From NCBI GenBank assembly GCA_029263415.1, contig JAJCXN010000054.1, forward strand, positions 124,001-188,000: DNA of 64,000 bases, written 5' to 3'. The notes beneath the pieces were generated by a model. The model was not told the origin of the DNA, ran no database searches, and worked only from the letters and a program-made list of their open reading frames with translations. How positions within the stretch are numbered: the stretch's first letter is position 1; every line of letters begins with the position of its first letter. The DNA is from Acidobacteriota bacterium (lineage in GTDB: Bacteria; Acidobacteriota; Thermoanaerobaculia; Multivoradales; Multivoraceae). Both the position numbers and the translations under genes were made by a program. Shown piece by piece: positions 7,297-35,330 of the stretch.

Positions 7297-10200
7297 CTAC
7301 GGAACGATGACCTGAGTCGTCTGGTGCAGGATCACGTGGGCAGTTGTTTCCCACGTGTCCTGTCCCTCGGTGGCGGCCTCTTGTCCGTCGGTGGACGTCA
7401 CGGTCACCGTGTAGCTTCCACCCTCAAGCTCGCGGGTCGCAGTTCTTCCGTTGTGTATCCAGTGAGACGTAGCTCCCGGTGAGAGGGCCGTCCGGACCAA
7501 CTCTCCGCTTGCATCAGTCAAGGTGTATCGCGCTCGGCGTTTGGACGCCACTAACTCGGGAACGGTGATTGCCAGCCGACCAGAACCTGGAATCACTACG
7601 GTGATGCTGGCCGTTTCGCCGCGGTCTCTGGCCGGTATCGTCACCGTGCGCCGGACAGTGGGGGTGGCTTGGCTGGAGAAGAGGAACACGTGCTTGCCTT
7701 CGGGCGCCCGCCTGACTTCGGTGCTACCTGCGGCACTGAGTGCGGAAGAGTAGGTGAACAGCGTGTGGCCATTTGCGTCGATGGCCGACACGTATCCTTG
7801 TCTCAGCGGTCGACCGCGTGCGTCGAGAAACGTCGCGATCATCGGGCCGGCGCGCTCGAGTTTCAGGTCTGCGCGCAGTGGATCTCGCCCGTCGGTAACA
7901 GTGAGCTGGGTTCTGGCATCGATGAAGCCGTCGGCGTCGGCGCGTAACTCATAGGTGCCGGGGGGCACGTCGTCGTGAACCACTTGGCCGTTCGTGTCGC
8001 TGAACAGGGTCGCGCGAAAGCCGGTCGTTTGACTGTCCTTGTTCTGCACCACGACGGTCACTCGGACACCTGCAAGCGGAGCACCGGTTTCGGATTCGGA
8101 CACCCGCACCTCAACCGTCTGGCCCAGGAGTCGAAGGACGATGTCTTGATCTCCGTCTAGGACAATGGTCTCCAGGTAAGTACCGCTGATGTTGGTTCCG
8201 GCGAGTATCTGGTAGGTGCCGCTGTTCAGGTTCTCGATTTCGAAGCGACCGTTGGCATCAGTAGTGGTTAACGCTCCGCCCCGCTCTCCTAAGACGCTCA
8301 CCTCTTGGCCCATGACCGGTTCGTCATGACGAAGAACCTGCCCACTGAGGGTGTGGCCGGGAACGAACTCAAGATCAACTGCTTGAACCGTATCGCTCTG
8401 CTGGATGTGCAAGTCCTGGCTTGTCGCGCTGCGTCTTCCGAATCTGGCGCCGACCTGCCAGTCGCCCTGGGCAAGGTGGTCGAGCCGGTATCGCCCCTCA
8501 TGATCGGGTTGAGTTGTACGAGATCGACGGTGTGGTTCAGCGCTCCAGGCGGACACGGATGTTTCCGCAAGTTCGTCTGTGGTGAGTCCGATCACTGTGC
8601 CGGTGACGCTGCCGCCCGCTTCGAAGTGGATTTCGAGCCCGCTGACATCGTTGTCGCCAAGCAGGATTTCACCTTCTCCAACGGCCGTTGGCAAACCCTC
8701 GATGGATGCGTGGAGCTGGTACCGGCCTGGTGGCCGGGTCAAGCGGAACTCACCGTTTTCGTCTGAGCGAGGTGGGTGTGGTCCCGACCAACCACCACTC
8801 GATGCAAGAATCTTGACCGTGACTTCTGCTCCTGCCAGGGGTTCTCCATCGACTCCGTAGACCGTGCCGCTTATAGTTGGGCTGCGGTCCAACCTGACGT
8901 CGAGTCGGTTCGAGCCGGTTGTGATCTCAACATCGCGCACTGTTGGTAGGAAGTCTTGAGCCTTGATCTCGAACGAGGCCTTGCCGGGTACAAGTGTGTC
9001 GATCCGGTAGTTGCCCTCGGCGTCGGCCCGTGCGCCGGCCGGTGGACGTTTGTCGGTGCGATTCACGCTGATGGATTGGATACTGGCGTTGGCAATCGGT
9101 TGTCCATCGGAGTCGGTGATGTTGCCTTCCAGGGTCAGACCCTTGTTCAGCTGAAAGGCAAGGGGCTTTAGTTGTGCGTCGGCGGTGACCGTCCGTTCTA
9201 CCGGCGCGGCCCCGAGATAGCCACGGGCGGCGGCACTGATGGTCCAAGAACCGTGTCCGAGCAGGCCGAGCTTGAATCGACCGTTGCTATCGGTGGCGAC
9301 GTCGCTCGGATGATTCGCTCGGGGACCGCGGCCGTCTGGGCTGAAGGTAGCCTTTGCTTTGACCGAGGCGCCTTCAATCGGCGCTAGAGATCCGTCCGTG
9401 ACGACGCCCTCGAGATAGCTCCCAACTTCGAGTACAAAGAGAAGTGGACTCTCGGAGGGTGCCTTGCTCCTCTGACTAGGTGATCTGATCCGGTCTTCCT
9501 TGGTGGTCGAGATGCTGTAGGACTTGTCGGTCGTCAGGCTGTTGAAAGTGAAAGCACCGTTGGAGTCTGTCGTGACTTCAGCGGTCTCCACGTTCCACCA
9601 GTTGCCGAAGCTTCCCGGCTTAGCACTCGCCTGGACGACCGCTCCCTCGACGGGCAAGCCTTCGTCGTTCTCAACACGACCCCTGATGGTGGCGCCCGGC
9701 GACAGAGTGACGACGCCCAACTCGAACGTTCGTGGATGGTTTGTGGCGGTCCTTGCGTCGTCCGCTAGCGGCGGTGCGAGGACCTGCACCCCTTTGATCA
9801 ATGCTCGGGCGAAGCTGGGCGCATGCACGGTGAGGTCGTACTGCCCGGACGCCTTGTCAGTCCATTGAAATCGTCCGCTGGTGTCGGAAACTACTGTTTC
9901 GACATTGGAGGCCAAGCGAGCCTGCGCCAGCATGCTGCTGGTTGAGCGGTCTGTTCCACCTACGATGGTGGGTGCGAGCGAGATCTCAGCACCGGCGATC
10001 GCTTGTCCAGCTTCGTCTTGTACTCCGCCGGTGAGCAGCAGCCCTCGAACCATGCGAACTACTAGCGGATTGTTGTCGCTCGATCCGATGGCCTCGATCC
10101 GTGTCGTTGATGTGCCAAAACCCTTCTTGCTGGTTTGGATCTCTATGGGCGCATCGCGCGCAACGGGCCACAGTTCGAAGGTGCCGTCTTCACCTGTTCG

Positions 10201-11655
10201 AGCCGCAGCTTCTGCCACTGCCAGCCGACCCTCGTTGAATCGAAGCGGTTCTGTGACCTTGAGTTCCGCGTGGCGGACGATCGTGCCGCGCTCATCGACC
10301 ACGACGCCGATCAGTTTGATCGCGCGAGCGAGTGCGAACGGTTCGAGCTCATTGGTTTCGGCAAACCGCTGGCTCACCGACCGTTGCTTGCCGAAGTGGT
10401 CGGGTGCAGCAGCTCCGAAGAGGACCTGCGAAGGGCGGACCCCGCGATCAATGTTTGAGAACTGAACTGCCGGCGTTGTGAGGGTGAAACGCCCGTCGGC
10501 TTGTGCCTGTGATGGGTGCGCTCTCGATCTCCATGCCCACGCTTGCGGGACCGGTGCCTGTGTTGTTTGAGCGACGATGCGCCCGGATTGTTGTCGCGGA
10601 GACTGCAGAAGGAGTGGGCGCTTGCGGTCGGTCTCTGAGAGGGAGGCACGCAAGGTGAACTCACCGGACTCTTGGCTCGAGTGCAGGATCTTCACCTTCT
10701 GATCGCGGTCGAGTGGAATGGGGAGGATGATCTGCCCTAGGGCATCTGCAATTGCCACCGGAATGTCGGAGATGAAGGCGATCGCGCCCGGCGCCGGAAC
10801 ACCGTCCGCATGCGCGATGCGCAGTTGGAGCGACTTGGCTGCTTGCAAGGTGACGCGCTTCGTGTCGCTAGTGCCTGCGATCTCGATCGCTTCTGGGAGG
10901 TAGCCTTCAGCTCTGACGGTCATCTTGACGGCTTGGTTGATTGTGGGGATGGTGGCCCGGCCGCTCGCTGCACTCCTGCGTCTGCTTGTTACTGAGTGCA
11001 CACGGTTTGTGCGGCCAGGCTTGGCGTACATCGTGGTGAAGTAGCCGACACTTCGCGCTGCGACAAGCGCGCCCTGAATCGGTGCTCCTTGCTCGTTGAA
11101 GATGTCGATCGCGACCGTTCGACGAGGCAACAAGGTGACCGCGGCGAAGTGCGTGTCGCGGAAGATCGGGATCCAACTGAGTATCTGTGCTGGTGCGAAG
11201 TCCGGATGCTTGAGCTTCAAGTCCCAGAACCCATCGCCGCCGACGGTGGCCGAAAATGTGCCGTCACCAGCGGTGCGCTCCTCAGCGACGGACTCAGGTG
11301 GAACTCCTGTGAGAAACGTGGTTGCGATGTCGTACACCGATTGGGCACCGTGCACGGTGATCTTGACTCTAGGGACCGGATCGCCACTGTCATCGACAAC
11401 CGTGCCGGTGATGTGCCAGGGTCGATCGGTCCGTATGGGTGGCGGCGTCTCGACTTTCGTGGAGGACCTAGAAGCACCCTCTGTCTGGGCGACCGCTGGG
11501 GCCGTCTGGGCGACCTCTGGGGCTGTCTGAGCGACCGCTGGGGCCGTCTGGGCGACAGCTGGGACCAACGCCAAGCTCAGGGTCAACAGAACTGCGCTCA
11601 GAGCGATGGCACAGCGCGGCCTCGTGCTGAATCCGGCGTGGCGATGATCCGTCAT
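7297..11655 (-). CDS. Giant secreted protein of repeated CarboxypepD_reg (beta-sandwich) domains
   Basis: A 1,452-residue exported protein. I chose the ATG at 11655: it is preceded by GGGGA nine bases upstream, begins a proper signal peptide (MTDHRHAG then a hydrophobic stretch ending VPAVAQ), and clears the divergent gene at 11814; the open frame runs to 11895 but that would overlap. After the signal comes a 4-fold AQTAPAV repeat. The rest is about a dozen Ig-like carboxypeptidase regulatory domains, recognisable by repeated patterns such as GTVVDDSGDPVPRVKITV, GVVVDERGTIVRHAELKV, GRVENDEGLPVEGAVV and GNITDSDGQPIANASI, each followed by D..G.F/Y. No catalytic domain is visible. It is probably a surface or periplasmic scaffold. 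There is no TonB plug or beta-barrel, unlike many CarboxypepD_reg outer-membrane receptors. Confidence 0.88.
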   Translation of the reverse strand: MTDHRHAGFSTRPRCAIALSAVLLTLSLALVPAVAQTAPAVAQTAPEVAQTAPAVAQTEGASRSSTKVETPPPIRTDRPWHITGTVVDDSGDPVPRVKITVHGAQSVYDIATTFLTGVPPESVAEERTAGDGTFSATVGGDGFWDLKLKHPDFAPAQILSWIPIFRDTHFAAVTLLPRRTVAIDIFNEQGAPIQGALVAARSVGYFTTMYAKPGRTNRVHSVTSRRRSAASGRATIPTINQAVKMTVRAEGYLPEAIEIAGTSDTKRVTLQAAKSLQLRIAHADGVPAPGAIAFISDIPVAIADALGQIILPIPLDRDQKVKILHSSQESGEFTLRASLSETDRKRPLLLQSPRQQSGRIVAQTTQAPVPQAWAWRSRAHPSQAQADGRFTLTTPAVQFSNIDRGVRPSQVLFGAAAPDHFGKQRSVSQRFAETNELEPFALARAIKLIGVVVDERGTIVRHAELKVTEPLRFNEGRLAVAEAAARTGEDGTFELWPVARDAPIEIQTSKKGFGTSTTRIEAIGSSDNNPLVVRMVRGLLLTGGVQDEAGQAIAGAEISLAPTIVGGTDRSTSSMLAQARLASNVETVVSDTSGRFQWTDKASGQYDLTVHAPSFARALIKGVQVLAPPLADDARTATNHPRTFELGVVTLSPGATIRGRVENDEGLPVEGAVVQASAKPGSFGNWWNVETAEVTTDSNGAFTFNSLTTDKSYSISTTKEDRIRSPSQRSKAPSESPLLFVLEVGSYLEGVVTDGSLAPIEGASVKAKATFSPDGRGPRANHPSDVATDSNGRFKLGLLGHGSWTISAAARGYLGAAPVERTVTADAQLKPLAFQLNKGLTLEGNITDSDGQPIANASIQSISVNRTDKRPPAGARADAEGNYRIDTLVPGKASFEIKAQDFLPTVRDVEITTGSNRLDVRLDRSPTISGTVYGVDGEPLAGAEVTVKILASSGGWSGPHPPRSDENGEFRLTRPPGRYQLHASIEGLPTAVGEGEILLGDNDVSGLEIHFEAGGSVTGTVIGLTTDELAETSVSAWSAEPHRRSRTTQPDHEGRYRLDHLAQGDWQVGARFGRRSATSQDLHIQQSDTVQAVDLEFVPGHTLSGQVLRHDEPVMGQEVSVLGERGGALTTTDANGRFEIENLNSGTYQILAGTNISGTYLETIVLDGDQDIVLRLLGQTVEVRVSESETGAPLAGVRVTVVVQNKDSQTTGFRATLFSDTNGQVVHDDVPPGTYELRADADGFIDARTQLTVTDGRDPLRADLKLERAGPMIATFLDARGRPLRQGYVSAIDANGHTLFTYSSALSAAGSTEVRRAPEGKHVFLFSSQATPTVRRTVTIPARDRGETASITVVIPGSGRLAITVPELVASKRRARYTLTDASGELVRTALSPGATSHWIHNGRTATRELEGGSYTVTVTSTDGQEAATEGQDTWETTAHVILHQTTQVIVP
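11483..11566 (-). repeat. 21-bp tandem repeat, 4 copies, at the signal-peptide junction
   Basis: Four 21-bp units at 11483-11503, 11504-11524, 11525-11545 and 11546-11566 encode AQTAPAV-like heptapeptides at and after the predicted VAQ cleavage site. Units differ by one to four bases. Confidence 0.9.
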
Positions 11656-11813
11656 CGGTTGCAATCCCCGGAACGAGATCGGTGCTTTGAGGTGGGAAGC
11701 GGCGACCCCCGTTCTGTTCTCTGGCAGATCCAACGGTATCAACGGTTGCAGTAGGGTCACGGTTCCGATCTGTACTGCAAAGACCGATATCCCATACGGA
11801 GGCGCCATCAACG

Positions 11814-12827
11814 ATGACCCGAACCAACCGACAGTGGAAACTTGCCAAGAGGCCCGAGGGTGCAATCTCTGAAGGAGACCTTGAACTGGTGCCAAGCCTG
11901 GTCGCGGACCTTGAAGATGGGCAGGCGTTGATTCGCAACATCTATCTCTCGCTAGATCCGACCAACCGCATTTGGATGAGCGATATGGATCAGTACATGC
12001 CGCCGGTTGAGATCGGGCAGGTGATGCGCGGCGGGACCTTGGGCGTGGTGGAGGAGAGCCGCAACCCTGCGTATCCAGAAGGTGCGTTGGTGTCCGGCCT
12101 AGGTAGCTGGCAGGATTATGCGGTGGTGCCAGCCGACTTCTTCCAGACCTTTGAGAAACCGGCGGGTGTACCTTTAACTGCGTTTCAAGGCGTCCTGGGC
12201 ATGATCGGCGCCACGGCGTACTTCGGGCTGCTCGATATTTGCGACCCGAAGGAAGGCGAGACGGTTGTGGTGACGGCGGCGGCCGGCGCGGTCGGCTCGC
12301 TGGTGGGGCAGATCGCCAAGATCAAGGGCTGCCACGTTGTTGGGATCGCGGGTGCCGACGAGAAGTGTGAGTGGTTGCGCTCGCTCGGCTTTGACGCCGC
12401 GATCAACTACAAGACGGAAAATGTACTCGAGACGCTCAAGCAGCATTGCCCTAAGGGTATTGACGTGGTGTTCGAGAACGTTGGTGGCGAGATTCTGGAT
12501 GCGTCGTTGACCTTGATCAATCAGAACGCACGGATTTCGCTGTGTGGCTTGATCGCGGAATACAACGCGGAGGGTCCGGTTCCGGGACCGTACATGTTCC
12601 GCAACATCCTGATGAAACGCGCGCGTGTGCAGGGTTTCATCGTCACCGACTTTGCGCCCCGTTTCCCAGAGGCGATTGGCCAGCTCGCGCAGTGGATGGC
12701 GGAAGGCCGTTTGCAATACCGGGTGGATGTAGTGGATGGCCTGGAGAATGCGCCGTCTGCGGTCAAGAAACTGTTCGATGGCAGCAACAAGGGCAAGCTG
12801 ATGATTCGTGTTTCGGAGGAACCATGA
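11814..12827 (+). CDS. NADP-dependent medium-chain oxidoreductase (prostaglandin/2-alkenal reductase type)
   Basis: A 337-residue zinc-independent MDR enzyme of the leukotriene B4 dehydrogenase/CurA/YncB group, which reduces the C=C bond of alpha,beta-unsaturated carbonyls with NADPH. Family signs are LSLDPTNRIWMSD at 46-58, GMIGATAYFGLLDI near 129-142 and the nucleotide loop AAAGAVGS at 155-162. Later come NVGGEILDASL and the C-terminal GSNKGKLMIRV. A GGAGG ribosome site lies 11 nt before the ATG. Its stop overlaps the next ATG by four bases. The physiological substrate is unknown; detoxification of reactive enals is a reasonable guess. Confidence 0.92.
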   Translation: MTRTNRQWKLAKRPEGAISEGDLELVPSLVADLEDGQALIRNIYLSLDPTNRIWMSDMDQYMPPVEIGQVMRGGTLGVVEESRNPAYPEGALVSGLGSWQDYAVVPADFFQTFEKPAGVPLTAFQGVLGMIGATAYFGLLDICDPKEGETVVVTAAAGAVGSLVGQIAKIKGCHVVGIAGADEKCEWLRSLGFDAAINYKTENVLETLKQHCPKGIDVVFENVGGEILDASLTLINQNARISLCGLIAEYNAEGPVPGPYMFRNILMKRARVQGFIVTDFAPRFPEAIGQLAQWMAEGRLQYRVDVVDGLENAPSAVKKLFDGSNKGKLMIRVSEEP

Positions 12828-22413: not shown

Positions 22414-25089
22414 ATGACCAAGAATCGAGATAGCCGAGAGGAACAGCCAACGACTCGTCTCGATCAAAGTGCGTTCGCAAGCAAACCTTTGAACCGCGAA
22501 CGCCACGACTCAGAACCGCTGAGAGTCGGTTCGTGGGTCGGGCCATACGAGCTGGTCGAGTTCCTTGGCGCAGGCGGCATGGGTACCGTCTTTCTCGCCC
22601 AGCAGACCGAACCGGTGACGCGAACCGTCGCACTCAAGGTAGTACAACCCCGCCTGTCCGACGGCGCGGAGTCTTGGGAATATGACCAGCGTTTTGCCGC
22701 CGAGCGTCAGGCGCTCGCGAAGCTCTCGCATCCTAACGTGGCGCAACTTTACGACTCAGGGGAAACAGCGGGCGGGCAACCGTTCTTCGCGATGGAGTTC
22801 GTCAAGGGCAAGTCGATTACGCAGTATTGCGACGAGAACTGTCTCGATGTGCACCAGCGTTTGCAGCTCTTCTTGGCAGTCTGTCGAGGCGTTGAGCACG
22901 CACACCAGAATGGTGTGCTGCACCGCGATCTCAAACCCGACAATGTACTCGTTGGGATGGGTGATCTACAGCCCTTGCCAAAGATCATCGACTTCGGGAT
23001 TGCCAAAGGTATCGACGAACCTCTAGCGGCAGTCACTCAGCTCACCCATGGAGGCGTTGTCGGAACCCTGGCGTACCTCAGCCCAGAGGCGATTCGCGCG
23101 GCCCAGGGACGCGCAACTCTCGACACTCGTGCCGACGTATTCTCACTCGGCATCCTGTTGCACGAGTTGCTGGTCGGGGCGCGACCCCAGAACTTCACTT
23201 CGCACAATACCGCCGAGGTCTTGGAGCGCATCTTGGCCGCAGATCTGCCGTCCCCGAGTGTTCACTGGAACTCACTGACTCAAGAGCAGCGAGCGCGTGC
23301 TTCGGGTGACCGCGAATCGACCCCAGAGGGCATCTTGGCGGCGCTCATTGGCGATCTCGATTGGATTGTGCTGCGAGCCACAGCACAGAACCGCGAGGAC
23401 CGTTATCCCTCCGCTGGCGCCCTAGCCGCGGATCTGGATCGGCACTTGGACGACCTGCCGGTCGAGGCTAGGCCGCCTTCAAGGATCTACTCACTGCGAA
23501 AGTTCGTGCGCCGCAATCGAGTCGGAGTGGCAGCTGCAGTGGCATTTGTTCTCGCACTCATTCTGGGAATGATCGGAACGTTTGCGGGCTTCCTTCAAGC
23601 ACGCGCTGAACAGGAGCACTCGGACCGACAAGCGCAAGCCGCGCTCCAGGCCCAACAGGAGTCCGACAGTGTTGTGAGATTTATGGTCGGCCTGTTCAAG
23701 GCTTCAAGTCCCGGCGCGGACCGCCGCGACTTGGAAGCAGTGGGTGAAGTGCTCAAACGCGGTGCGGACCAACTAAGAAGTTCACTGGAAGATCAACCCG
23801 CTGTCCGAGCTCGTCTGCTGTTGGCAGTTGGTGAAATCCTCAAAGAACTGGGCGACTACCCCAGCTCAACTCAACTACTGGAAGAAGCTGTTCGAATTCG
23901 CAGAGGTCAAACCGGCGAAGGCGCCTCTGCGAGATTGCGAACGGCGTTAAACGAACTCGGTATGGGCCTCGTGCAAGCCGGAGACTATTCCGCTGCCGCG
24001 CCGGTCTTGCGAGAAGCAGTTGACCTGCAGATGCAACTGGCTGATGGCAACGGAGTGGTCATTTCGTCCCTGGGCAACCTAGCGAATGCACTGCGTAGTG
24101 TCGGGCGCAAAGAGGAGGCCCTGGAGATCAGGCGACAATTGGTAGAGATGCTTGAGGCAGAGAGTCCCGAAGGTCGCGAGTCTCTGGCTCGAGCACTCGC
24201 GGGTCTTGCCAAGGACTTGCAGGCGTTAGACGAGCGTAATGAAGCAAAGGCAGCCTACGATCGTTCGATTAGCATGATTCGCCAACACGTGGCCGACCAA
24301 CCCATGCTTCTCGGGATTGTCCTGATCAATGCTGCAAGCGCCTACGAGAATCCGAATGACGTAGCCACTGGCATGCTGAGAGAGAGCCGCGATCTACTGG
24401 AGAACTCCGTGGGACCTGACCATCCGGCTACCCTCGCTAGTATTCAAACCCTTGCCAATCGCCTCCGCGAGACAGATGTCGTTGAAGCTCAGCGGCTGTT
24501 GCTCGACGTCACTCCGCGGATCGAGCACGCCTTCGGGCTTGCTCATCCCAACTCGGTCACCGCGGCATTCTCGCTATCTCTAACGTATCTCCAGCAGGGT
24601 CAATTGGAGACAGCGGTTGACCAGCTTGAGGCGGTCCTCGAGCGGAGGCGGAGTTCTTCCTCGAAGAATCTGGATCAAAGAAGCCACATCGAGGCAAGTC
24701 TTGCCGCGGCGCGTTGCGCTCAGGATCGCGCTGAAGAAACACAGACCGCGGTTGCTGCGATGCTGGGGTCGCTAGCGAAGAACGATAAGGAGGCTTCGAG
24801 CTTCGGCCACAGCCTGGTGGCTTGCTCGTTGTTGTTGGCGGGTAGCAGCAGGGAGTCTGAGGCTAGGTATCGAGTGGCTCATCAAGCGTTCAAGGATGAG
24901 GCAAACACTGATTCGGTTTTGGAGGGGCAGATCCTGTTGGGCTTGGGCAAGTCGCTGGCTCTACGCGGGCAAGATTCCCAAGCTGGTGCACAATTCGAAG
25001 CGGCGGAACAGGCGTTCCGCACGGAGCTGTCCGAGGATCATTTCTGGCTGGCCAAGCTGGCTGCTGCGAGAGAGGACATTCGAGGCTAG
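22414..25089 (+). CDS. Transmembrane Ser/Thr protein kinase with C-terminal TPR domain
   Basis: An 891-residue receptor-like kinase. The N-terminal Hanks-type kinase domain covers about 45-350: Gly-rich loop LGAGGMGTVF at 51-60, catalytic lysine K75 in VALKVV, HRDLKPDN at 170-177, DFG at 193-195, and GTLAYLSPE. One membrane helix lies at about 370-392, and the outer part from 400 on is a long TPR-rich sensor region with a tetratricopeptide pattern (e.g. LNELGMGLVQAGDYSAAAPVLREAV). It is probably a sensor of envelope proteins or peptides. It has no adjacent sigma factor, unlike the kinase at 30.5 kb; its substrate is unknown. Confidence 0.94.
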   Translation: MTKNRDSREEQPTTRLDQSAFASKPLNRERHDSEPLRVGSWVGPYELVEFLGAGGMGTVFLAQQTEPVTRTVALKVVQPRLSDGAESWEYDQRFAAERQALAKLSHPNVAQLYDSGETAGGQPFFAMEFVKGKSITQYCDENCLDVHQRLQLFLAVCRGVEHAHQNGVLHRDLKPDNVLVGMGDLQPLPKIIDFGIAKGIDEPLAAVTQLTHGGVVGTLAYLSPEAIRAAQGRATLDTRADVFSLGILLHELLVGARPQNFTSHNTAEVLERILAADLPSPSVHWNSLTQEQRARASGDRESTPEGILAALIGDLDWIVLRATAQNREDRYPSAGALAADLDRHLDDLPVEARPPSRIYSLRKFVRRNRVGVAAAVAFVLALILGMIGTFAGFLQARAEQEHSDRQAQAALQAQQESDSVVRFMVGLFKASSPGADRRDLEAVGEVLKRGADQLRSSLEDQPAVRARLLLAVGEILKELGDYPSSTQLLEEAVRIRRGQTGEGASARLRTALNELGMGLVQAGDYSAAAPVLREAVDLQMQLADGNGVVISSLGNLANALRSVGRKEEALEIRRQLVEMLEAESPEGRESLARALAGLAKDLQALDERNEAKAAYDRSISMIRQHVADQPMLLGIVLINAASAYENPNDVATGMLRESRDLLENSVGPDHPATLASIQTLANRLRETDVVEAQRLLLDVTPRIEHAFGLAHPNSVTAAFSLSLTYLQQGQLETAVDQLEAVLERRRSSSSKNLDQRSHIEASLAAARCAQDRAEETQTAVAAMLGSLAKNDKEASSFGHSLVACSLLLAGSSRESEARYRVAHQAFKDEANTDSVLEGQILLGLGKSLALRGQDSQAGAQFEAAEQAFRTELSEDHFWLAKLAAAREDIRG

Positions 25090-27949: not shown

Positions 27950-30415
27950 CTAGCGCTCGCCCGTGACCACGTATGAACGCTGGACGTCCGCTGCAATCTC
28001 GGCTTCCTCGAACAAGATCGGGCGCCATTCCTTCTTGGAATAGAGCTCGGTTTGATCCCAGAAATGTTCGGACTCAGGATCTCCCGATTGGCCGTAGGTC
28101 AGAAACGCCTGGGCCTTGGGTGAACCATCCGCTTGATACTCAAGAGCCATGATGAAACTCGATCCGGAGTTGACCGGATAACCCTTCTCAGTCAAGCGTC
28201 GACTGCCTTCGAGGGCGCTGGGATCGAGCTTCGGCTCGAGGGTGGTGCTATTGCCGCCGTTGCGCACGAAGTTGGCGATGCCTTCGTAGGTGCCGCCGCC
28301 GCCGTGCATTGGAATGCGCTTGCCGCCGCGTTCTGCGTATTGGACTGCGCCGAGTTCCACGTCGAGTGCCAGGTCACGAGATTGCATGAACTGCGCCGCT
28401 TTGGCGAGGCGTTCGAGTGCGACGGCGTCCTTCTTGAGGTCCCGAGGAGTGTTGATCGGATCGCCCGAGTCAAACCCGACCGAGAACAAGGAACCGGCGT
28501 CGAGAGTGTCGGCGACCTCGTACTGGGTGATCCATTCGCGGAACAGGACCGCTCCACGACTATCAAGATCGTAGGTGCCGTCCCAAGCATCGAGCACGTT
28601 GCATGCGGCACTGAGGTCGACGGCGATTCCTGTTGCAGTGGGCGTGGCTCCCAACTGGACTCGCGGCTGTCGCTTGCAGCGCGCGACCAACTGTTCGCGC
28701 AGCAGCTCGGCGGCCAGGCTGCGGTTGTTGAGGATCGCTGCGGAGAGTTCGTCGAGCGTGAACTTGCCGTCCTCACCTGAAGCGCCCGAGGGTGTGCGGT
28801 CGTTGAGAACGACATCGTTCATGCGCGTACGGAGCGTGCGTCGGGTCTCTTCACCACCCATCAGCGGTGAGTAGCCCTCGAGCAGTGCGTTGGAGTTGTT
28901 CAGCCAGTAGCTGTCGTTGGCGTTGAACACGTAGTCAGCTCGAGTGACCTTCGGGTGCTGGTCGAAGGAGGCGACGCCGGGGTCGCGCGCACCGTCTGCT
29001 GATTGCCACTCAAACATCGAATTGGATCCATCTAAGAGCACGATGCCGCGGCTCCAGAACGATTGGGCGATCGGGTTTGCCTCGAGGCTTGTCTGCCACG
29101 CGTCGATGGCTGCATCGCTTAAGTGCGGCGTCGAAGAAGAGTCGATCAACCAGGCTTCGCCATCCACACTGGCTGAGATGGTGTTGACCCATGGCAGACC
29201 GCCCCAGCGCTTGTGTGCAGCTTGGAACTCCTCCATAGTCTTCGCTCGATCCATGTCGAGCCACTGCATGCGGCTCTCCTCGTTCTCTTCGTTGGCGTCA
29301 CGCACCGCCAGCACCATCTGCGGCGACCAACCCACGCCTGGGAAGTTCACTACTGGCCCGTAGTGGCTCATCCACACCGTGTGCTCGACCGCGTCCGAGG
29401 CACCGGAGACGCCCTTCACCTGAACCGAGACGGAGCGTGCTTCGAGATCGCGCCAGGAATCGTCGTATCGATACTGAGTGGCGTTCTCGGGATTCAGGGT
29501 CAGCGAGTAGGCGGTGTAGCGCTTGCCTGCGGAGACGGTGTGAGTCCAGCCCACAGCTCGATTGAAGCCGATGGCAACGCCCGGGATACCGACCAAGCCC
29601 ACGCCGTAGATGTCTAGTTCGCCGTCCGCGCTGCCGTCTTCGAGGGTTAGGTGCTTCTCCCAAAAACGGTTGGCGCCCAGCCATGGGTAGTGGGGATTGG
29701 CGATCAACATTCCACGACCTTGAGCCGAGAGATCTTTACCGATTCCCCAACCGTTGCTGGCCTGATCAAACGTTGGCCACTCGGGTTCGTAGGCGGGCTT
29801 GCTCATTGCCGCACTCGTCTCGCCCTCAGTAGTGGGCGGTTGCGCGCTTGCGATCATGCTGGCGAAGTTGCCAATGATGGTGGTGACGGATCGTTGGTAG
29901 GCGACCAGGTCGGTTGCCGAGATGGGTTGGACCCAGTCCTCGCCTCGGCACCATCCAGCGACGTTTTCCTTGCCGGTTTCCTCAAGGTACTGGTTTGCTC
30001 CGGCCACGTAGCCCTCGGTCCAACTCCGTGTGACGTCGTCCATTTCCGCAAGCTCTTGCGCGGCGCGCTCGTGCATGCGCAGCGCCTTCATGGTGACATC
30101 GCTGTTGAAATGGCGATCACGTTCGCCCCGGCCAAAGTACATCGAACGTTCGCCTCGCGCACGGACAGCGACGTCGACCAGGCTGCAGAGGTGGTCTTCG
30201 GCCAAGGCGTAACCCTCGCCGAAGCCGAGGTTTGCCATTGAGTCGGCCTTGATGTGCGGAATGCCGTAGCTGGTCCGACGGATCTCGGCCTGGTAGCCAT
30301 CGGCACCACTGCCAGTGCCACCGCTGCCAGTGCCACCGCTGCAGGCGATGGCGAGGGCACCAACAATCGAGATGGCGAGGATGGCTGCGCCGGGTAAGGA
30401 GAGAGGATGCTTCAT
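27950..30415 (-). CDS. Penicillin-acylase family lipoprotein (Ntn hydrolase, acylase)
   Basis: An 821-residue exported acylase. The ATG at 30415 has GGAG eight bases upstream; the frame extends further up without a ribosome site. The N-terminus runs MKHPLSLPGAAILAIS, hydrophobic to Cys25 (LAIAC), a non-ideal lipobox, then a GTGSG repeat linker. The family fold shows RTSYGIPHIKADSM, GEGYALAEDHL, and the autocatalytic Ser220 in FDQASNGWGIG that becomes the N-terminal nucleophile. The beta subunit shows ANPHYPWLGANRFWEKHL, GIPGVAIGFNRAVGWTHTVS, WLIDSSSTPHL and a C-terminal SGDPESEHFWDQ. Substrates in this family include penicillins and N-acyl homoserine lactones; which applies cannot be told. 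Confidence 0.9.
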   Translation of the reverse strand: MKHPLSLPGAAILAISIVGALAIACSGGTGSGGTGSGADGYQAEIRRTSYGIPHIKADSMANLGFGEGYALAEDHLCSLVDVAVRARGERSMYFGRGERDRHFNSDVTMKALRMHERAAQELAEMDDVTRSWTEGYVAGANQYLEETGKENVAGWCRGEDWVQPISATDLVAYQRSVTTIIGNFASMIASAQPPTTEGETSAAMSKPAYEPEWPTFDQASNGWGIGKDLSAQGRGMLIANPHYPWLGANRFWEKHLTLEDGSADGELDIYGVGLVGIPGVAIGFNRAVGWTHTVSAGKRYTAYSLTLNPENATQYRYDDSWRDLEARSVSVQVKGVSGASDAVEHTVWMSHYGPVVNFPGVGWSPQMVLAVRDANEENEESRMQWLDMDRAKTMEEFQAAHKRWGGLPWVNTISASVDGEAWLIDSSSTPHLSDAAIDAWQTSLEANPIAQSFWSRGIVLLDGSNSMFEWQSADGARDPGVASFDQHPKVTRADYVFNANDSYWLNNSNALLEGYSPLMGGEETRRTLRTRMNDVVLNDRTPSGASGEDGKFTLDELSAAILNNRSLAAELLREQLVARCKRQPRVQLGATPTATGIAVDLSAACNVLDAWDGTYDLDSRGAVLFREWITQYEVADTLDAGSLFSVGFDSGDPINTPRDLKKDAVALERLAKAAQFMQSRDLALDVELGAVQYAERGGKRIPMHGGGGTYEGIANFVRNGGNSTTLEPKLDPSALEGSRRLTEKGYPVNSGSSFIMALEYQADGSPKAQAFLTYGQSGDPESEHFWDQTELYSKKEWRPILFEEAEIAADVQRSYVVTGER
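30304..30348 (-). repeat. 15-bp tandem repeat, 3 copies, after the acylase lipobox
   Basis: CACCACTGCCAGTGC at 30304-30318, CACCGCTGCCAGTGC at 30319-30333 and a partial CACCGCTGCAGGCGA at 30334-30348 (plus strand). They encode the GTGSG linker right after the putative lipidated Cys. Confidence 0.9.
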
Positions 30416-30528
30416 GAAGGAGTCTCCGATCGATGACTGGTAGACCGACGATAGGGGGTCTTTGGGGGGGAGGGTCGATGTTACCTGCACTCAGGCAAAC
30501 AAGGGCTGCTCGTTGCTTGCAGGGTTGT

Positions 30529-30573
30529 TTGCTGCGGGCTCAGTTGCTGCGGGCTCGGCTGCTGCGGGACTTG
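30529..30573 (-). repeat. 15-bp tandem repeat, 3 copies, spanning the kinase stop codon
   Basis: TTGCTGCGGGCTCAG at 30529-30543, TTGCTGCGGGCTCGG at 30544-30558 and CTGCTGCGGGACTTG at 30559-30573 (plus strand). The kinase TGA lies inside the first unit, so part of the array is intergenic. Confidence 0.88.
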
Positions 30574-33128
30574 GCCTGCTCCAACCACTCCGCAGCCTGG
30601 CGGACTTTGTCGTGATCTTCGCCAACGGCTTCTAGGAGGGTTGCGTAGGTGCGGGTGAGCAGTGTTTCGGCTTCTTGGAAGCGGCCCTGTTGGTTGAAGC
30701 TCGCCCCCAAGAGATTCTCAGCGGACGCGATCAACCAGTGCCCTTCGGGCAGGGACTCCGTTCGACTTGCAATGGCCGCTCGAATCTGCGGCTCGGCATC
30801 GGCCCCTAGGCCTTGCTCGATGCGCACACCGGCGTAGACCACTTGGGCGTAGGCGAGGATGGGGTGGCCCTCAGGAAGCGCGGTGGTGGCGCGCTCCAGC
30901 AACTGGGTGGCGTTCGAGGCGGCTTCCTCGAGGCGCTCCACCCGTTGATAAAAATCGACCAGGCTTGCCAGGGTTGTCAGCGTCTGGGGATGGTCGGGAC
31001 CGAGTAGGTCATCGCACAGAGCGAGCGACTCGAGGTACAAGGGCTCGGCCTCGTCGGTTCGCCGCTCAAGAGTGGCGTATCCAGCTAGGTTGGCGAGCAA
31101 CGAAGCGAACAGCGGTGACGGCGGTAGGCCGACATCCCTGTGGATGGTCGCGGCATCTTGAAACAAGGCGTTAGCTTCCTCACGACGATTGCTCTGCAGC
31201 AGAAATACACCGTAGTTGTTGAGCATGATTACGTCGCCCTCGTCTGCGGGGTCTTGCGCAAGCGCGTCGACGCGCAACTGCTTGTACAGGCTCTCTGCTC
31301 GCTCTCGTTCGCCGACGTCGAGTAGGGCTGTGGCGTACTGTGACTGAACCACGGCCAACTCCTCATACTGCGCGCGTTCGAGTGCAGGCAGCGCCGCCTC
31401 TAGGAGTTCCACGGCCCGTTCGGTTTCGCCTAAGTCAGAGACTGCAATGGCTAGCATCTGGCGAGCCAGCGAAGTCTCGACGTGGTCCTCACCGAAGACG
31501 CGAACGTTCTCAGCTTCGGCGCGTTCGAGAACCTCGACCGCCTTCTCTTCCAAACCGAGGTTGCGGTAGGTCTCGCCGATGGTGACCAACAGCGCTCCGG
31601 CTTCATCCATCGGTTCTTCATCGTCCAGGCGTTCCACCGCAGTGTCGAGCAACTCAGCGACCGTTGTCTCTTTGCCCATTCCGTACATCGGGTCGGGCGC
31701 GCTGAAAAGCGCGTTGAGAAACTCGTTGGTGCGTTCCAGTTTCTTTGCTTCAAGAAGCGCGCGGCGCCCTTCAGAGGCGGCGCGCAGGCTCTGCACAATG
31801 CCGACGCTGATGCCGCCCAAGGTGAGGAGCAGGATCCCCATAAGCAGTGCCACGCGTTGCTTGTTGCGCGCCAAGAAGCGGCGCAGCAGATAAGTAGGCG
31901 TCTGAGCGCGCGCAGTGACCGGGCGACTGGCTAGAACGTTGCGGAGATCGTCGGCAAGCTCTTCGACCGAACCATAGCGGTCACTGGCGTCCTTCTCGAG
32001 CGCGGCCATTACGACCGCATCAAGGTCGCCCGCGAGATCCCGTTCGAGCCGCTCGCCGCTGGTTGCTCTTAGATCTGCGATGGCGTTTTCGGCTTGACGG
32101 TCGAAGGTCTTCACTAGATTACTGGGAGTCGGCGGACGGGTCTCGCAGACCATTCGTTCGATGTGGCGCGGACTGCGATCTTCGAGTTGGTACGGGCGGC
32201 GACCGGTGAGGAGTTCGAACAAGACCACCCCGAGCGAATAGACATCGGAGCCGACCGTGATGGGCTCCTGCCTGACCTGCTCCGGGCTTGCGTACTCAGG
32301 CGTCATCGCGCCCATGCCGAACAGCGTTGCCGTCTGGCCGGGCTGGTCAAGATCGATCAGCTTCGCGATGCCGAAATCGAGCAGCTTGGCTTCGCCTTCG
32401 TCGGTGACCAGAATATTGTCGGGCTTGAGATCGCGATGAACCACTAGTCGGCGATGCGCGTGCAAGACTGCCTCGCAAACGGTCAAGAACAGTTCAATAC
32501 GGGCTTTCAGCGAGAGCCGGTGTTCGTCGCAATAGCGGTTGATCGGAGCGCCTTCGGCCAGCTCCATGACCAGGTAGGGCGATCCATGCTCGGTGTGGCC
32601 ACCATCGAGAATGCGAGCGATATTGGGATGACTTAGCCGGGCGAGAATCTGGCGTTCAGCTTCGAAACGTTGGAGTGCCGCACCGGGCAGGGCTTGCATG
32701 ACTTTGAGCGCCACCGCGAGATCGAAGCTTTCATCGGCCCGGTGAGCCCGGTAGACCACCCCCATACCGCCCCGCCCGATCTCTTGGTCGATTCGGTAGT
32801 TGCCGATCTGGTCGCCGCGGTGGTGGGGTGAAGGCGCTATGCCGGGCTCATCGGGATCGATGTTGCGGGTAAGAGCCTCTGACAAGTCGGCTGCCTCTGA
32901 GTCTTGAGGTGGTGAGTCGCTAGACGGTAGGACATCGGTAAGAGCGGGCTCGTCGCGTGCGAGGGCGAGCAGTTCGAAAGCGCGGGCTCGCAACCTGGCG
33001 GAGTCGGCGGTGCGCTCGTTGAGCCATGCGGTTTGCAGCTCAAGGTCTTGACCAAGCGCGTCTTCGGCCAGGTCGAGGGCTTCGCGCTCAATGCGCAGCA
33101 AGGTGGTGGGTCGGGGTTCGGTATTCAT
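30540..33128 (-). CDS. Transmembrane Ser/Thr protein kinase with TPR domain, coupled to an ECF sigma factor
   Basis: An 862-residue kinase. Residues 1-105 are a helical N-terminal extension with an acidic linker. The Hanks-type domain has IGRGGMGVVY at 117-126, K142 in VALKVM, HRDLKPDN at 231-238, DFG at 251-253 and a GAMTPEYASPE activation end. A single membrane helix spans about 425-446; the C-terminal region is TPR-rich (e.g. LGETERAVELLEAALPALERA). Its ATG overlaps the stop of the ECF sigma gene (TGATG), so the pair is co-translated. This arrangement suggests the kinase acts on that sigma factor, as PknT does on EcfP in Vibrio. The C-terminus ends within a 15-bp repeat (SRSSRARSN). Confidence 0.94.
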   Translation of the reverse strand: MNTEPRPTTLLRIEREALDLAEDALGQDLELQTAWLNERTADSARLRARAFELLALARDEPALTDVLPSSDSPPQDSEAADLSEALTRNIDPDEPGIAPSPHHRGDQIGNYRIDQEIGRGGMGVVYRAHRADESFDLAVALKVMQALPGAALQRFEAERQILARLSHPNIARILDGGHTEHGSPYLVMELAEGAPINRYCDEHRLSLKARIELFLTVCEAVLHAHRRLVVHRDLKPDNILVTDEGEAKLLDFGIAKLIDLDQPGQTATLFGMGAMTPEYASPEQVRQEPITVGSDVYSLGVVLFELLTGRRPYQLEDRSPRHIERMVCETRPPTPSNLVKTFDRQAENAIADLRATSGERLERDLAGDLDAVVMAALEKDASDRYGSVEELADDLRNVLASRPVTARAQTPTYLLRRFLARNKQRVALLMGILLLTLGGISVGIVQSLRAASEGRRALLEAKKLERTNEFLNALFSAPDPMYGMGKETTVAELLDTAVERLDDEEPMDEAGALLVTIGETYRNLGLEEKAVEVLERAEAENVRVFGEDHVETSLARQMLAIAVSDLGETERAVELLEAALPALERAQYEELAVVQSQYATALLDVGERERAESLYKQLRVDALAQDPADEGDVIMLNNYGVFLLQSNRREEANALFQDAATIHRDVGLPPSPLFASLLANLAGYATLERRTDEAEPLYLESLALCDDLLGPDHPQTLTTLASLVDFYQRVERLEEAASNATQLLERATTALPEGHPILAYAQVVYAGVRIEQGLGADAEPQIRAAIASRTESLPEGHWLIASAENLLGASFNQQGRFQEAETLLTRTYATLLEAVGEDHDKVRQAAEWLEQAKSRSSRARSN

Positions 33129-33760
33129 CAGCTAGGCCTTGATGCGGTGGCTTTGGTTGGGTCGCCGGTCGCGTTGTCGGTCGCGTCAGTTGCGGAAAGG
33201 CCCTGTAGGTAGGCCTTGAGCCAAGCGCGCGTGGTTTGCCATCGTCGCTTGATCGTGCGTGTCGAAACGCCAAACACGTCAGCGAGTTCATCGCTGCTCA
33301 GGCCTGAGTAGAAACGCATGACCGCCAGCCGCGCGCGGTCGGGATCCACTTCTTGCAGGGCGTTGAGCGCTTGCTCGATTGCGAGAATGTCGACCGGGTC
33401 GGTCCAAGCGATCGACCCGAGCGGCAGTTCCGTGCGCACCCATTCACCACCCCGTTTGTTGGAAGCACGCGCGCGTGCGTGATCGACCAGGACTCGCCTC
33501 ATAGCGGTCGCAGCAAAGGCGTAGAAGTGATTGCGATCCTGCCACTCCATGTCGCGGATCCCCAGCAGGCGCACGAAGGCTTCATTGACCACCGCGGTCG
33601 GCTGAAGAGTGTGGCTGCCGCGCTCATTGCGAAAGAGGTGGCCAGCGATCTTGCGCAGCTCCGTGGCTGCGGCCGAGAACAGTTGGTCGGCGGCGTTGGA
33701 GTCTCCCTCCCGCCATCGGTGGAGGAGGTAAGTGACGGGTGGATCGTGGGGCTGGTGCAT
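33128..33760 (-). CDS. ECF-type RNA polymerase sigma factor (TIGR02999-like)
   Basis: A 210-residue ECF sigma factor. Region 2 runs about 25-95: TELRKIAGHLFRNERGSHTL, then QPTAVVNEAFVRLL at 53-66 and NHFYAFAATAMRRVLVDHAR. Region 4 has YSGLSSDELADVFGVSTRTIKRRW, a helix-turn-helix for the -35 element. No anti-sigma gene is adjacent; instead the kinase gene overlaps it. Where most ECF factors have an acidic DAED-like motif in region 2.2, this one has QPTA, with T51 and T55 available for phosphorylation. The tail has a 12-bp DNA repeat (ATDATDNAT). It likely activates a regulon only after phosphorylation, which is inferred by analogy to ECF43. Confidence 0.92.
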   Translation of the reverse strand: MHQPHDPPVTYLLHRWREGDSNAADQLFSAAATELRKIAGHLFRNERGSHTLQPTAVVNEAFVRLLGIRDMEWQDRNHFYAFAATAMRRVLVDHARARASNKRGGEWVRTELPLGSIAWTDPVDILAIEQALNALQEVDPDRARLAVMRFYSGLSSDELADVFGVSTRTIKRRWQTTRAWLKAYLQGLSATDATDNATGDPTKATASRPS

Positions 33761-33854
33761 TCGAGGTCTGAGTCGTTCCCTGTGGATTGTTGATGGCAGG
33801 TGCAGAGTTTACCCGCGGCGTCGATCGACGATTCCTAGTGCTAGCCTTTTGTCT

Positions 33855-35330
33855 ATGGTTGATCTGAGTTCTGTGGCCTGGAGTTGGCGATCTCGTCTGA
33901 GACTGAGCGCAGTTGCCTGGCTGGTCACTTCGGCGGTCTCTATTCCAACCTACGCGCGTGCCGAGACAACTCTAAGCGTTCCTCAGACGGTGCCTGGGGA
34001 GGTGCGAGGTGTCTTTGCAATTCGAGGAGACGTTGAACTCGCGGCCGAAGGGGCAGATCAACGTCTGACGCCGGCGTCGGTGCTTAAGCTAGTGGTCGCT
34101 GCTGCGGCCTTCGACGTGCTCGGGACCGAGTATCGTTTCTTGACCGAGATCTATGCGCCACAACGGCAAGGCAGAAGCGAACCGACCAAGGTTGGCCAGC
34201 TACTGGTGGTCGCTGCAGGCGATCCGAGTTGGAATGCGGATCATTTCGAGAACGACGTTGAGGCCCCATTGAAGCAGTTGGCAGCAGGGGTTGCAGCGAG
34301 TGGGATCAAGCGCGTTGAGGGTGACTTGATTGTCGATACCTCGCGCGTCGTGGGACGTCGGGTGCCGACCGGTTGGTCTGCCTCTGACGCGAGTCTTGGA
34401 TACGGCGCAGCACCAAGTGCTCTGGCTTGGCGCGACAACCGCTCGAAGGTGCGGATCGCACCGGGTGCGAGAGTCGGCGCGTTGGCACAGATCGAGGCTC
34501 TGGATCCGATTGTCTGGCACAACGACACCACCACCGCACCTGCTGAGCGTGACGGTCGAGGCAGCGTCGAGTTTGATCAGGAGTGGGGAGCGGGTCGCGC
34601 GGTCCTGCGCGGGGAGTACCCGATCACTGAACGACCGTTCACGGTTGAGATCGCAACGCCTAATCCAGACGAACGAACAGCTCGGGCCCTGCTTGACGCT
34701 TTGTCGAATGCTGGGGTGGTGGTAACTGGTGATCTGGTGCTGCGATCGCAGCCACAAGCCCGGGACGGATTCGAACAGGTGGCGGCGTTCGAGTCGCCGC
34801 CGTTGCGAGCGATATTGCAGCCCTTGCTTGCAGACAGCAACAACTTCACCGCAGAGATGCTCTTGCGGACCGTGGGTTATGCAGTTCACGGCGAAGGCCG
34901 ACTGGATCTTGGCCTAGATGCACTGACTGAGTTCCTGGTTGAGCGGGTTGGCGTGCCGGAAGAGAGTTTCTCGATCGATGATGGGTCTGGCTTGTCGCCA
35001 TCGAATCTGGTCTCAGCTCGGTCAGTTGTGCGGGTGCTGCAGTGGGCATGGAAACAGCCTTGGCGCACGGTCTACTTCGACGCGATGGCGAGCGAGAGCG
35101 CGGGCACCATCAAAGATTTCTGGCCGCGCGCTCCGGCGATCCGTGGCAAGACCGGAACCCTGCGTCATACCCAGTGTCTTGCTGGAGTACTTCTGCCGCA
35201 GGCTTCGTCCGAGTCAGCTCAGGAGCGTGAGCCGATCTTCTTTGCGTGGATGATCAACCACAGCCTCAGAGAGCGGACCCTGATCAGAAGGAGCCTGATC
35301 GACACCTTGTGGTCGTGGAGTCGCCAATAG
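33855..35330 (+). CDS. dacB: D-alanyl-D-alanine carboxypeptidase/endopeptidase (PBP4, S13 family)
   Basis: Periplasmic peptidoglycan hydrolase of 491 residues. The start is the ATG at 33855, which begins a signal peptide (basic WRSRLRLS then AVAWLVTSAVSI, cleaved near YARA). All three S13 active-site motifs are present: S75-V-L-K78 in LTPASVLKLV, SNN at 328-330, and KTG at 432-434. The large insert between the first and second motifs is typical of PBP4. It cuts the D-Ala-D-Ala cross-bridge or stem peptide. It diverges from the sigma factor gene and precedes the DprE1-like gene by 98 bp. Confidence 0.94.
   Translation: MVDLSSVAWSWRSRLRLSAVAWLVTSAVSIPTYARAETTLSVPQTVPGEVRGVFAIRGDVELAAEGADQRLTPASVLKLVVAAAAFDVLGTEYRFLTEIYAPQRQGRSEPTKVGQLLVVAAGDPSWNADHFENDVEAPLKQLAAGVAASGIKRVEGDLIVDTSRVVGRRVPTGWSASDASLGYGAAPSALAWRDNRSKVRIAPGARVGALAQIEALDPIVWHNDTTTAPAERDGRGSVEFDQEWGAGRAVLRGEYPITERPFTVEIATPNPDERTARALLDALSNAGVVVTGDLVLRSQPQARDGFEQVAAFESPPLRAILQPLLADSNNFTAEMLLRTVGYAVHGEGRLDLGLDALTEFLVERVGVPEESFSIDDGSGLSPSNLVSARSVVRVLQWAWKQPWRTVYFDAMASESAGTIKDFWPRAPAIRGKTGTLRHTQCLAGVLLPQASSESAQEREPIFFAWMINHSLRERTLIRRSLIDTLWSWSRQ

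Follow-up and report, generated by a model that had tools for sequence, protein, structure and literature searches.

Two described systems are closest to the gene pair reported here, EcfP/PknT of Vibrio parahaemolyticus and EcfK/PknS of Xanthomonas citri, both of which belong to ECF43. EcfP has an uncharged region-2.2 tetrad (STTA) with a phosphorylated threonine at the third position, and no anti-sigma factor (PMC8999054). According to passages of PMC13147305, the tetrad consensus of ECF43 is QTTA, and the tetrad-equivalent threonine is phosphorylated directly in EcfK and, as cited there, in EcfP. EcfK likewise has threonine at the third position, and its gene adjoins that of a transmembrane kinase with TPR repeats, PknS, for which phosphorylation of EcfK was shown (PMC13147305, in part). 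The crystal structure 9EED is that of PknS; residues 1-81 are not seen in it, three to four helices being predicted for them, and the passages of PMC13147305 give no function for this part. The phospho-threonine mechanism itself is already published for EcfP and EcfK.

The window, i.e. the whole stretch of 64,000 nucleotides that was analysed, contains on its minus strand a 210-aa sigma factor gene (33128-33760) of the TIGR02999 / Sigma70_ECF type, recognized from its open reading frame, family profiles, a helical model and matches to solved ECF sigma factors. With 189.7 bits against TIGR02999 (Sig-70_X6; curated cut-off 126.15) it is a member of that family, and it scores 185.2 bits against PF07638; the family name is silent on mechanism, and the family includes threonine-bearing as well as EPxx members. 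The structure model, built from 69 aligned sequences, is helical with a mean pLDDT of 84.5. As in the original prediction, a DAED-type motif is lacking, and the alignment places QPTA at residues 53-56 (33593-33604, minus strand), where the region-2.2 helix (54-66) begins. The two threonines named for its vicinity, T51 (33608-33610) and T55 (33596-33598, both minus strand), were found where expected; an acidic motif elsewhere in the register was looked for and none was seen. Ordinary ECF sigma factors of the same genome have an acid in the QPTA register, e.g. EAED (four of six sub-threshold loci were readable there). Judged from the alignment, T55 is the equivalent of the phosphorylated threonine of EcfP and EcfK. 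EcfK differs in its tetrad, QATE, which retains one acid, whereas QPTA is uncharged.

The sigma gene is followed by the gene of an 862-aa transmembrane Ser/Thr kinase (30540-33128, minus strand); base 33128 is common to both reading frames (TGATG). The kinase has a three-helix N-terminal module, here called NTD (residues 7-59 approximately, 32952-33110), and a Pkinase catalytic domain (residues 111-325, 32154-32798) in which the Gly loop, Lys, HRD and DFG motifs are all intact. A single hydrophobic helix, predicted from hydropathy to span the membrane, covers residues 426-446 approximately (31791-31853). It is followed by TPR repeats (30609-31691, approximate borders), matched by the TPR_12 profile and presumed, with a topology that is likewise predicted, to be the sensor. 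The one-base overlap with a transmembrane TPR kinase thus stands as first described, its sensing role being putative. The closest solved relative is PknS (PDB 9eed, 192 bits), which has the same order of helical NTD, kinase domain, transmembrane helix and TPR repeats; in the NTD the sequence match of the window kinase is weak (7.6 bits).

No anti-sigma gene was found beside the pair, in agreement with the earlier claim: both flanking genes were profile-scanned and belong to the Penicil_amidase and Peptidase_S13 families. The penicillin amidase family gene (27950-30490, minus strand) lies immediately downstream of the kinase gene on the same strand, and is possibly co-transcribed with it, or a target. 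The gene of an S13 D-Ala-D-Ala carboxypeptidase (33732-35330, plus strand) is divergent and adjoins the sigma gene; a link of the signal to the envelope is conceivable. A second TPR kinase in the window (22414-25089, plus strand) has neither a sigma neighbour nor the NTD and is a useful internal control. A 1532-aa protein with seven CarboxypepD_reg repeats is encoded at 7297-11895 (minus strand). The pair shows the traits of ECF43, namely an uncharged region-2.2 tetrad with threonine at the third position, an adjoining Hanks-type kinase and no adjacent anti-sigma gene, and is probably a new member of that kind. EcfP/PknT responds to polymyxin.

We propose, with a probability of about 0.7 for the explanation as a whole, that the sigma factor is switched by phosphorylation of T55 and is held by the NTD of its kinase. 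The sigma factor would be silent when made, because QPTA, the tetrad that contacts RNA polymerase, is without negative charge. The membrane kinase, translated together with the sigma factor, would sense a signal via its TPR domain and, as PknT and PknS suggest, phosphorylate T55; phosphorylated T55 would restore the charge, and the sigma factor would bind core polymerase. The NTD would probably hold the sigma factor, most likely by the T55-bearing domain sigma2, and in this way each kinase could find its own partner. With 22 sigma factors above the family cut-off and 57 distinct kinases in the window genome, the matching of sigma factors and kinases is a wiring problem. Gene anatomy, alignment, co-occurrence, the pattern of charge compensation and a near one-to-one coupling of the NTD and sigma families are the direct observations on which this proposal builds.

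The survey of relatives covered 11 genomes and 148 of their 186 places: every match in ten genomes, and 17 of 55 in genome G044. Of these 148 sigma genes three are below the family cut-off; 61 relatives that were found with a QPTAVVNE search seed were left out of the threonine counts. The third tetrad position is threonine in 134 of the 148 and serine in four (138 with either). QPTA is therefore present as predicted, and is the ordinary signature of the family rather than a distinctive feature. The ten tetrads without threonine or serine are EPQA, EPAA, EPGV (twice), EAPG, DTVG (twice), DPAT, RTGD and EPAG, with A, G, V, Q or P in place of T55. In every one of them position 1 or position 4 is acidic, which holds for 45 of the 138 others (Fisher 2.9e-5, kinship ignored). 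On a tree computed with the tetrad columns left out, parsimony counts approximately six independent losses of the threonine; at a background of 0.326, an acid in all six has a probability of 0.326^6 = 0.0012. For the DTVG of genome G002 the closest relatives already have Asp, and the acid is probably older than the loss of the threonine. A fixed acid in threonine-less tetrads fits the charge model of sigma activation, and these exceptions can be read as natural support for it. T51 (conserved as S/T at 86%) is retained in all ten members without T55 and is therefore not the charge-bearing position; its role is probably structural. Of the two candidate charge sites originally named, T55 stands, by its alignment with the phosphorylated threonine of EcfP and EcfK, and T51 does not.

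A kinase gene is adjacent to 131 of the 148 sigma genes; it lies downstream and on the same strand in 102 cases and upstream in 12, and is convergent in 11 and divergent in 6. The pair arrangement is therefore not due to chance, and the co-occurrence in relatives, on which the original prediction had staked itself, was found. All 16 untruncated orphan sigma factors, i.e. those with no adjacent kinase gene, keep threonine or serine at the third position; a partly structural role of the threonine, or kinases that act in trans, could account for this. Among the 148 surveyed sigma factors no association of the threonine with kinase adjacency was found, and a substitution of an acid at position 1 for an adjacent kinase was not significant (Fisher 0.12, Asp only). 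On the EPxx branch (L047, L049, L050 and L326-L330) the threonine was lost, Glu was fixed and the kinase was kept. The catalytic motifs are intact in all three EPxx kinases of the window genome, and in further genera of the order the tetrads EPGV, EPAA, EPAG, EPSA and EPRV (L326-L330) are accompanied by a kinase in five of five cases.

The retention of T55 in orphan sigma factors and its position at the beginning of helix 54-66 in the model would also be expected if T55 were kept for structure and the kinase acted on other sites, such as the linker between sigma2 and sigma4, as at T106 of EcfK. The T51A form of EcfK is functional in vivo (PMC13147305, in part), so that a second site can matter, and the phosphorylated linker stretch of EcfK is T104-S110. 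A possible counterpart in the present family, with the register to EcfK taken from sequence comparison, is linker column 111, where 53% of 145 letters are S/T and 70% are S/T/D/E; the window sigma factor has Glu there (codon 33428-33430). T110, a candidate for the counterpart of T106 by spacing, was rejected, as its column is mostly V/I/L. A purely structural role of T55 is distinctly unlikely: it does not predict that the ten replacements among 148 always coincide with a fixed tetrad acid, and with Glu at column 111 the window sigma factor already has an acid at the proposed alternative site. The alignment of T55, the charge pattern and the kinase co-occurrence support the EcfP/PknT (ECF43) logic that was first suggested for this locus, and T55 very probably acts as a phospho-switch, by analogy with EcfP/PknT and EcfK/PknS.

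Sigma-linked kinases begin with a helical segment of approximately 45 residues ahead of the kinase domain. An NTD profile was rebuilt from 82 of 88 sigma-linked kinases of other genomes, those in which the NTD is detectable; in six it is not. In the window genome all 18 sigma-linked kinases score 7.5 bits or more, as do 7 of the 39 unlinked ones (Fisher 1.5e-9), and the remaining 32 unlinked kinases score at most 3.4 bits; the window kinase itself has one of the two lowest scores among the linked kinases. Its NTD is modelled as three helices (7-25, 29-39 and 44-59) with a core pLDDT above 90, from an alignment that presupposes homology. No family of Pfam or NCBIfam covers the NTD, one weak TPR_14 match apart, and among solved folds the best results were a Foldseek E of 2.2 and a VIA-align Z of 4.1. 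Against 177,635 distinct PDB sequences the NTD profile gave one strong match, PknS (9eed) residues 9-55 (E 5.5e-9), followed by designed proteins (E 0.002). The searched literature, which included the EcfP and EcfK work and reviews, reports no sigma-docking module; within the literature and families searched, the NTD of sigma-partner kinases is what is new. Being almost confined to such kinases, it offers a sequence marker for pairs, non-neighbours included, and a part to delete or swap. The window genome has five orphan sigma factors and seven orphan kinases with the NTD, so that partners encoded far apart could form pairs.

Evolutionary distances of the NTD were compared in 145 sigma-kinase pairs. 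They correlate with those of the partner sigma factor at 0.24 and with those of the kinase domain of the same chain at 0.06, and the bootstrap interval of the difference is 0.09 to 0.26. In each of the three subsets the NTD follows sigma2 more closely than it does sigma4. In the strictest subset of 64 pairs the NTD-sigma correlation is not clearly above that of NTD and kinase (interval -0.01 to 0.29), and 6 of 33 kinase windows of 42 columns correlate with the sigma factor as well as the NTD does. Mean-field coupling placed 87 NTD-sigma contacts in the top 400 (62 expected), from too few pairs for any one to be singled out. The coevolution supports a contact of the NTD with sigma2 and is not proof of it. 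The lack of individual contacts from the coupling analysis, together with the disorder of the PknS NTD in the crystal and its flexible linker (PMC13147305, in part), would suit an NTD that regulates the kinase itself, by autoinhibition or dimerization, in a lineage that merely lives with these sigma factors. Such a role, free of sigma contact, is unlikely, as the NTD distances are nearly unrelated to those of its own kinase domain and related to those of the partner sigma factor. Alternatively, the kinase could be mainly a membrane tether whose NTD sequesters the sigma factor in the manner of an anti-sigma factor until phosphorylation releases it; the pair has no adjoining anti-sigma gene, and the NTD is small, helical and nearly one-to-one with the sigma factor. 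We regard the tether as very unlikely, given that, according to PMC8999054, EcfP is intrinsically inactive and that no anti-sigma factor is among the Foldseek and VIA-align matches of the NTD, which are all weak, so that this last argument is not exclusive. The NTD is very probably a sigma-partnering module; whether it works by docking the sigma factor directly, as the coevolution suggests, is an even call.

The number of NTDs tracks the number of sigma factors near 1:1 across genomes. A first sample comprised 41 genomes, the window genome and 40 relatives. In the 16 sigma-bearing genomes outside the profile with complete counts, NTD and sigma counts correlate at r 0.97 (sums 203 and 210), with a partial r of 0.96 given kinase number. 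Few kinases occur in the 21 sigma-less relatives, which therefore provide little test; one borderline NTD match was found in them (G020, E 0.0065). A second sample comprised 60 genomes from the phylum of G044, which itself gave some of the profile sequences. The sigma factor occurs in 22 of them, and all 22 have the NTD (r 0.98 for the 21 genomes with complete counts). In the 38 sigma-less genomes of this sample the NTD is absent except for two weak single matches (G088, E 0.005; G106, E 9.5e-4), which also stands against an NTD that serves the kinase alone: kinases occur in 58 of the 60 genomes and in 36 of the 38 sigma-less ones, which hold 571 kinase candidates. Kinase counts are of first-look candidates and some are "at least" values, as is the sigma count of G026. 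G063 and G110 appear to duplicate G024 and G044, respectively (places and scores the same or nearly so); G063 is from the second sample, and G024 belongs to the order of the window genome.

A wider statement has, in our estimate, about the same chance of holding as of failing: across bacteria, sigma-activating kinases would share a hitherto undescribed three-helix NTD that docks sigma2 and fixes the choice of sigma factor, the presence of the NTD alone would predict a sigma partner, non-neighbours included, and the EPxx side branch would have swapped the phospho-threonine for a fixed acid and kept the kinase. Within the family of the window genome, one genus (g2; G001 and G004-G023) has no TIGR02999 sigma factor above the cut-off and just 2 to 4 kinases, and its sister genera have more than 20 sigma factors each, a contrast that represents wholesale loss or expansion.
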